From: Rhodospirillales bacterium
GTDB taxonomy: Bacteria > Pseudomonadota > Alphaproteobacteria > SMXQ01
NCBI GenBank assembly: GCA_018666775.1
Contig: JABIXC010000017.1
Span: 186,001-250,000, forward strand
Length of the DNA stretch: 64,000 nucleotides
Direction: 5' to 3'
The notes beneath the pieces were generated by a model. The model searched no databases and had not been told where the DNA came from. It saw only the letters and a program-made list of their open reading frames with translations. The position numbers were made by a program, and so were the translations under genes. Positions 26,401 to 27,879 of this stretch are shown piece by piece (positions within the stretch are counted from its first letter, which is position 1; each line of letters opens with the position of its first letter).

Positions 26401-26772
26401 TTATTGACCTGTGGTGACAGACCGCAAATAGGCGATCAGGGCATCGCGATCTTCAGCACTGGAAATGCCGCGAAAATCCATGCGGGTGCCGGGCATCATC
26501 AAAAGAGGACCGGCAATAAATTTTTGCACATTTGCTTCTGTCCAGATCAGGTTTGATTTTTTCATGGCAGGGGAATACCGAAAATCTTCTGCCCTGCCCG
26601 CCTGCCTGCCGAACATGCCATAAAGATTAGGCCCGGCACTGTTGCCTTCATCTTTCTTCGTGATATGGCAGGCTTTGCATTTTGCAAAGACGCGCTTTCC
26701 ACGTTTGATATCCCCAGACATTTTTTTCACCATTTGGGGTTTTGTCTCGGCTCCATTCGGCCAGAGAACCAT
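26401..26772 (-). CDS. Class I cytochrome c domain, probably the frameshifted C-terminal half of the rhodanese gene
   Basis: The frame encodes a single c-type cytochrome domain: heme-binding CKACH (residues 32-36 of the frame) and an axial Met in MPGTRMDF, followed by the usual C-terminal helix (DRDALIAYLRSV). There is no signal peptide, although heme attachment needs export to the periplasm. The frame overlaps the end of the secreted rhodanese gene by 125 bases. Removing one A from the A7 run at 26721-26727 would fuse the two as ...PNGEK-MSGDIKRGKR.... I therefore read it as the second domain of one exported protein. A free-standing cytoplasmic cytochrome is unlikely. Confidence 0.75.
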   Translation of the reverse strand: MVLWPNGAETKPQMVKKMSGDIKRGKRVFAKCKACHITKKDEGNSAGPNLYGMFGRQAGRAEDFRYSPAMKKSNLIWTEANVQKFIAGPLLMMPGTRMDFRGISSAEDRDALIAYLRSVTTGQ

Positions 26773-27655
26773 CGTAAAGGCGCACTGATTTATTGCCTAA
26801 AATTTCAGAGGCGACGAACCAGCCGATGGATGCCCAGTGGCCTGTATTGCAAAAGACGATTTGCGCACCGTCTGTCTTCACACCGGCTTTTTGGTACAGC
26901 TTTTTTAATGCCGCCCGGTTTTGGAAATACCCACCATTTTTGATGGTTATTTTTGTCGCTGGCACATGGCGGGCCCCTTTTATGGTGCCGGGCTTTGTGA
27001 TTTGGGGATTTTTCCACATGCCCCTATATTCTTGTATAGGCCGATTATCGACAAGGGGAATGCCCTGTTTTCGCGCGGCAACAACATCTGCTTTCGTCGC
27101 CAATAGTTCAGGCCTGTAATGTGCCTTGAATATTTTATGGTCCGGGGTTTCGATATCCCAGTCCATGTCATAGCCTGCCTTGACATAGGCCTTCAGGCCA
27201 CCGTTCAGGATCGATACCTTGTCATGGCCCAAGAGCTTGAATATCCAATAGAGCCGCGTTGCCCCACCCATTTCCAGTGCATCGTCGCCAGCTGGGATCA
27301 AAACAACATGGGTATTGTTATCAATGCCCAATGTTCCGATCACGGTTTCCAGTGATTTGATATCGGGCAACATGCCGGGGACGCCAGCCGCATTTTTGAT
27401 GCGCCAGCGATTTTTCAGGTAATCGGTATAGACGGAACCGGGGATATGCCCATTTTCATAAGACTTCTGTGCGCCGATGCGAATATCGAGCATGCGGATG
27501 CCGGGTTTCTTCGTATTGGCCTTGATCCAGGCAGCATCGACCAATGGCCGGATTTTATGGCCATAAGTCCCATTCGCCTGAACCTGCATTGATGCGCCTA
27601 CCCATAGTAAGGCTGCAACCAATGTTGCCCTTATCAAGATTTGAATTTTTACCAA
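26648..27655 (-). CDS. Periplasmic two-domain rhodanese (sulfurtransferase), 3' end frameshifted
   Basis: Two rhodanese domains. The first (about 40-165 of the mature part) lacks an active cysteine. The second carries the active-site loop CNTGHWAS, with the catalytic Cys near residue 274. The start is taken as TTG at 27655, which follows AAAGGG and begins a signal peptide (KIQILIRATLVAALLWVGAS, cleavage after VQA); an ATG at 27703 is possible. The domain ends near DGSLAEWSRDKTPNGEK; the remaining 22 residues read through the cytochrome c coding region in the wrong frame and look like junk. Sulfur transfer to thiophilic acceptors coupled to a heme domain would suit periplasmic thiosulfate or sulfide chemistry; this is inference. 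Confidence 0.8.
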   Translation of the reverse strand: MVKIQILIRATLVAALLWVGASMQVQANGTYGHKIRPLVDAAWIKANTKKPGIRMLDIRIGAQKSYENGHIPGSVYTDYLKNRWRIKNAAGVPGMLPDIKSLETVIGTLGIDNNTHVVLIPAGDDALEMGGATRLYWIFKLLGHDKVSILNGGLKAYVKAGYDMDWDIETPDHKIFKAHYRPELLATKADVVAARKQGIPLVDNRPIQEYRGMWKNPQITKPGTIKGARHVPATKITIKNGGYFQNRAALKKLYQKAGVKTDGAQIVFCNTGHWASIGWFVASEILGNKSVRLYDGSLAEWSRDKTPNGEKNVWGYQTWKARLCKMQSLPYHEER

Positions 27656-27879
27656 GGTATACCCTTTAAATAAATAACATGCTGCATGACGCGATAAATA
27701 CACAAAAAAAAAGTTAAATATAATATTTCACATTATAAAATATGTAATTAAATAAGCAATGCCAAAGATCGATCTGCTCATATCTCAATAATGACGCTTT
27801 TTATACTCGTTTTGAGTTGGTTTAAGAGAGATTTTTACCCCTATGTCCCCCAACGGTGTGCTATATCGCCCATCAGGTT

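Follow-up and report, generated by a model that had tools for sequence, protein, structure and literature searches.

Rhodaneses carry sulfur, not electrons. Among the described proteins of sulfur metabolism, Rho-PDO and SQR-rhodanese combine a rhodanese with a redox partner, either a dioxygenase or a flavoprotein (PMC13047784). The locus that we describe here appears to be like them in that a rhodanese is joined to a redox protein, but its partner is a cytochrome c. In the literature searched, we found no account of a cytochrome accompanying the clade of secreted rhodaneses to which this one belongs.

The locus lies on the minus strand of the window, by which we mean the whole stretch of DNA that was analysed (64,000 nucleotides from a Rhodospirillales bacterium). 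The initial annotation had read it as one secreted protein, a rhodanese followed by a cytochrome c, whose frame is broken by a run of seven A nucleotides (A7). The locus has the following features:

27575..27655, minus strand: TTG start of the rhodanese (27655) and predicted Sec signal peptide, MVKIQILIRATLVAALLWVGASMQVQA, read from the sequence with the cleavage site placed by eye
26723..27574, minus strand: two-domain (TST/SseA-type) rhodanese, matched by Pfam PF00581 in two stretches
26721..26727, minus strand: A7 run where the coding frame switches (T7 on the plus strand), read directly from the sequence
26648..26722, minus strand: tail that the rhodanese ORF reads out of frame, with 24 residues behind GEK and then TGA, from frames and coding score
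26401..26721, minus strand: class I cytochrome c domain, from MSGDIKRG onward to the stop codon (PF00034, E-value 5.7e-12)

Our reading, to which we give a probability of roughly 0.7, is that these features make up one lineage-specific gene, coding for a two-domain rhodanese that is secreted and carries a C-terminal class I cytochrome c, with its frame broken by one extra A in the A7 run. A single secreted protein is the best explanation that we can offer of a broken frame in one sequence, and the fusion frame is interrupted in its sole known copy.

The rhodanese half

The rhodanese ORF spans positions 26648-27703 on the minus strand and reads ...EWSRDKTPNGEK and then NVWGYQTWKARLCKMQSLPYHEER up to its stop codon. 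By direct reading of the sequence, an AGGG is located six bases 5′ of the TTG at 27655. The two stretches matching PF00581 have an E-value of 5.9e-24 (84.9 bits, against a cut-off of 22.2), and the protein is like the TST/SseA enzymes (PF00581 twice) in both domains and in the cysteine loop of the second domain. The catalytic cysteine codon (26849-26851) sits in this second-domain loop, FCNTGHWAS, which is intact; its Cys, Asn and Gly are invariant in comparison with homologues, the Cys being invariant in 16 sequences. Identity to the nearest stand-alone homologues is about 41-54%, and the SseA / 3-mercaptopyruvate sulfurtransferase equivalog NF008557 gives 107.1 bits, under its cut-off of 250. 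A Sec signal is predicted, as in its periplasmic homologues. Unlike TST/SseA, however, the window rhodanese has a cytochrome c domain C-terminal to it, in another frame.

The cytochrome half

The cytochrome ORF, at 26401-26772 on the minus strand, differs in frame from the rhodanese and contains MSGDIKRGKRVFAKCKACH.... It matches PF00034 (Cytochrom_C) with 47.2 bits (cut-off 21.3), carries the heme motif CKACH at 26665-26679 and a predicted Met ligand (MPGTRM) at 26479-26481, and can be aligned from end to end with mitochondrial cytochrome c from the PDB. Its NCBIfam c-550 match has an E-value of 6.1e-24, yet lies under the equivalog cut-off. The initial annotation had called this overlapping frame a complete class I cytochrome c without an export signal, and the Pfam match, the heme motif and the Met ligand bear out the cytochrome. 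The ORF was examined for an export signal of its own and none was found; a signal peptide at this place is the outcome that the annotation had set against its own reading. The signal of the rhodanese could export the cytochrome only if the two frames were joined.

In the homologous secreted cytochromes, the mature chain starts AGD-x-x-KGKKVF, immediately after the signal peptide, and L174, a cytochrome paralogue in the same genome, also begins its mature chain directly behind the signal peptide. The remaining cytochrome homologues in the compared set appear to be membrane-anchored or to be segments of longer proteins. In L023, L030, L231, L232 and L236, secreted WD40-repeat-like proteins carry this class I cytochrome c domain at their C-terminus, a further natural fusion of the heme domain.

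These comparisons bear on the idea that the locus holds two overlapping genes, the cytochrome being translated from its own ATG at 26721 and staying in the cytoplasm. The ATG and a weak ribosome site, GGTGA, five bases upstream of it are correctly placed for such a gene. However, heme attachment in c-type cytochromes takes place in the periplasm, so that a protein staying in the cytoplasm would be unable to acquire its heme, and the secreted c-550-type relatives do have a signal peptide. The overlap of 74 bases and the nonsense tail are also unlike the gene junctions that we inspected. We regard two separate genes as highly unlikely, and one broken protein is favoured because the cytochrome does not have the signal peptide of its secreted c-550-type relatives.

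The junction between the frames

Shortening the A7 run by one A joins the two halves as NGEK-MSGDIKRG, exactly as the initial annotation had claimed for the removal of one A at 26721-26727. As sequenced, the two domains do not share a single reading frame and are one base off at A7. We scored the frames by codon log-odds, with 364 kb of the same contig as the training set. Per codon, this gives +0.24 for the cytochrome frame but -0.35 and -0.41 for its other two frames, and the score of the rhodanese frame drops below zero past the junction. Third-position G+C is alike in the two halves (0.51 and 0.55). By codon usage the cytochrome frame is coding, and the tail of the rhodanese ORF after PNGEK is truly out of frame. 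The annotation had the rhodanese end at PNGEK and run on into 22 residues of nonsense; the end and the nonsense stand, but we count 24 stray residues.

A tail like this one is absent from the 145 rhodanese homologues, which end near the position of PNGEK (at a median of 5 residues beyond the query). Because the rhodanese homologues stop there, and the mature chains of the secreted cytochromes start there, the A7 run coincides exactly with the border of both domains as judged by alignment to homologues, a match that goes beyond chance. One broken protein is thus the best reading, since the domain borders meet exactly and the cytochrome frame is intact. Old decay is argued against by the same cytochrome, which shows no damage and has kept both its heme motif and its Met.

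Origin of the presumed extra base

The extra A may have come in with the assembly, may be a genuine recent mutation, or may mark a place where slippage of RNA polymerase or of the ribosome restores the frame in part. In 364 kb, 30 of the 31 coding-flanked A7 runs stay in frame, with the A7 of the window as the sole exception, and homopolymer errors are therefore not common in the source genome. A generally poor assembly was rejected on this count and on the ordinary look of the other flagged sites: where inspected, these homopolymer shifts resemble normal boundaries between genes or faint signals from non-coding DNA. The genome was sampled with 300 kb of stretches. Two codon-based scans of limited sensitivity, under whose thresholds the window case itself is unlisted, gave few further candidate frame breaks. 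At G000:C17, near 125252 on the minus strand, there is a possible frame break, with a 62-codon tail of strongly negative coding score and ORFs of 100 and 157 residues on either side. At the window A7, a real one-base mutation and a single homopolymer error in the assembly are about as likely as each other.

Programmed or regular slippage at A7 would produce mainly the rhodanese with its 24-residue tail, and a minority of heme-bearing fusion. The position of A7 exactly at the domain border would suit this, and a +1 shift (AAA to A-ATG) would yield the fusion and is mechanically feasible. Indels cluster in homopolymers, and work on a laboratory gene has documented their bypass in runs of 3-8 bases (PMC3812077). 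On the other hand, functional slippage in bacteria mostly uses runs of about nine A (PMC1088944), the -1 shift permitted by A AAA AAT goes to the third frame and misses the cytochrome, and the 30 other in-gene A7 runs are ordinary. The arrangement is also found in no homologue, and the homologues end without a second frame. Because the site is not conserved, we consider programmed slippage very improbable; an accidental partial rescue by slippage at this run is possible.

Search for fused homologues

We searched for fusions of a rhodanese and a cytochrome c in 868 genomes around the source genome, in 369 genomes from a different class of proteobacteria, in GTDB contigs and in plasmids. The searches took in 61 relatives, 385 genomes from the class and 398 from the phylum. 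No such fusion was found in the relatives, the class, the phylum, the other proteobacterial class, the GTDB contigs or the plasmids searched. The initial annotation had looked to relatives for single proteins with two rhodanese domains followed by CxxCH; this was not borne out, with CxxCH in 0 of 145 rhodanese homologues, all of which stand alone. Homologues that are always separately encoded are the other outcome that the annotation had set against its reading, and in these searches this outcome was the one observed. Its larger claim of one secreted protein broken by A7 is strengthened by the exact borders, the coding frame and the missing signal peptide of the cytochrome, but finds no fused homologue. 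The source order was represented by 11 genomes, with no second species of the genus among them, and a fusion confined to the source lineage is compatible with the absence from the searched genomes.

Several candidates for a second fusion were rejected. One plasmid record reached 80% coverage with the full query, and no plasmid reached it with the junction query. The rhodaneses of G002 and G006, considered as vertical orthologues in the same family, belong to a different clade and are stand-alone proteins. Long cytochrome ORFs elsewhere were considered as rhodanese fusions, and the true fusions seen among them are WD40-cytochrome proteins.

The separateness of every homologue found, of either half, agrees with another history, in which a deletion took the stop codon of a rhodanese gene and the signal peptide of a cytochrome gene, joining neighbouring genes out of frame. 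The cytochrome would then be dead, and the rhodanese would work with 24 stray residues. By simple reasoning, two thirds of random deletions are expected to be out of frame. However, the cytochrome is without stop codons or damage and has native codon usage, and a border that lies at both domain ends and within A7 points to a one-base indel rather than to a random deletion. We consider such a deletion remnant unlikely, though less so than slippage or two separate genes.

A recurrent rhodanese-cytochrome gene pair

Of the 80 closest GTDB loci, 30 have, directly after the rhodanese, a gene for a secreted cytochrome that is about 210 residues long and contains a single CxxCH. Loci with the pair include L058, L061-L064, L068, L072, L076, L081, L086, L095, L127 and L131. 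These cytochromes form an unnamed family with a C-terminal CxxCH, and the three that were scanned had no Pfam match above the cut-off. The possibility that the window cytochrome is of this neighbour type was rejected, as the family profile gives no match. The pair is often part of a sulfur-trafficking cluster in sulfur-oxidizing proteobacteria; in several loci that were read fully, its neighbours are YeeE-like, TusA-like, DsrE-like and rhodanese genes (assignments by eye). The pair is present in marine sulfur-oxidizer lineages, at L127 and L131 (SUP05/Thioglobus) and L103 (SAR324), and at L127 it adjoins small DsrE-like genes.

The window rhodanese groups, with support, in a large clade whose members are mostly secreted; within it, it lies outside the subclade containing all paired rhodaneses. 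Because the neighbour cytochrome is unrelated, and the window rhodanese is outside the paired subclade, a cytochrome partner seems to have arisen at least twice for this rhodanese, in one case encoded by the adjacent gene and in the present case joined to it as a domain. The fusion is plausible because the same rhodanese clade recurrently pairs with a cytochrome gene. The occurrence of the same cytochrome class C-terminally on WD40-repeat proteins also speaks for it.

A possible function

An intact fusion protein would enter the periplasm via the rhodanese signal peptide, where the Ccm system would load heme onto it and the rhodanese cysteine would pick up sulfane sulfur. The attached heme could then accept electrons upon oxidation or release of the rhodanese-cysteine persulfide or sulfane-sulfur intermediate, and would hand them on to the respiratory chain. 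The genome encodes a Ccm maturation system (CcmE) and a YeeE-type transporter. SoxB was sought in the genome and is absent, and the classical Sox route was rejected as context on this ground. The coupling of sulfur transfer to electron transfer that the initial annotation had suggested gains indirect support from the rhodanese-cytochrome gene pairs that recur in other proteobacteria. We propose only tentatively, at somewhat less than even odds, that this lineage has a functional single-chain periplasmic sulfurtransferase with covalent heme, independent of the gene pairs of the sulfur oxidizers, that feeds sulfane-sulfur electrons into a cytochrome.

Comparison with known systems

The combination of domains is new, while the component families are known, and the locus is no new kind of system. 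If true, the rhodanese-cytochrome c fusion and the recurrent pairing would point to a periplasmic coupling of sulfane-sulfur transfer to electron transfer, which the gene pair makes open to testing in organisms that are in culture, Sedimenticola among them. With the cytochromes c-550/c2 of the mitochondrial type (CycA, PF00034), the window cytochrome has the heme motif, the Met ligand and the full-length alignment in common, but unlike them it has no signal peptide, sits behind a rhodanese and misses the c-550 equivalog cut-off. The window gene is also like the loci of Sedimenticola, SUP05/Thioglobus, Sulfuritalea and others, in which a secreted cytochrome with a single heme comes directly after a homologous rhodanese. 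In the Sedimenticola-type pair, however, the two proteins are encoded by two genes, the cytochrome is of a different family and the surroundings are a YeeE/TusA/DsrE-like cluster, whereas the window gene is in no such cluster.
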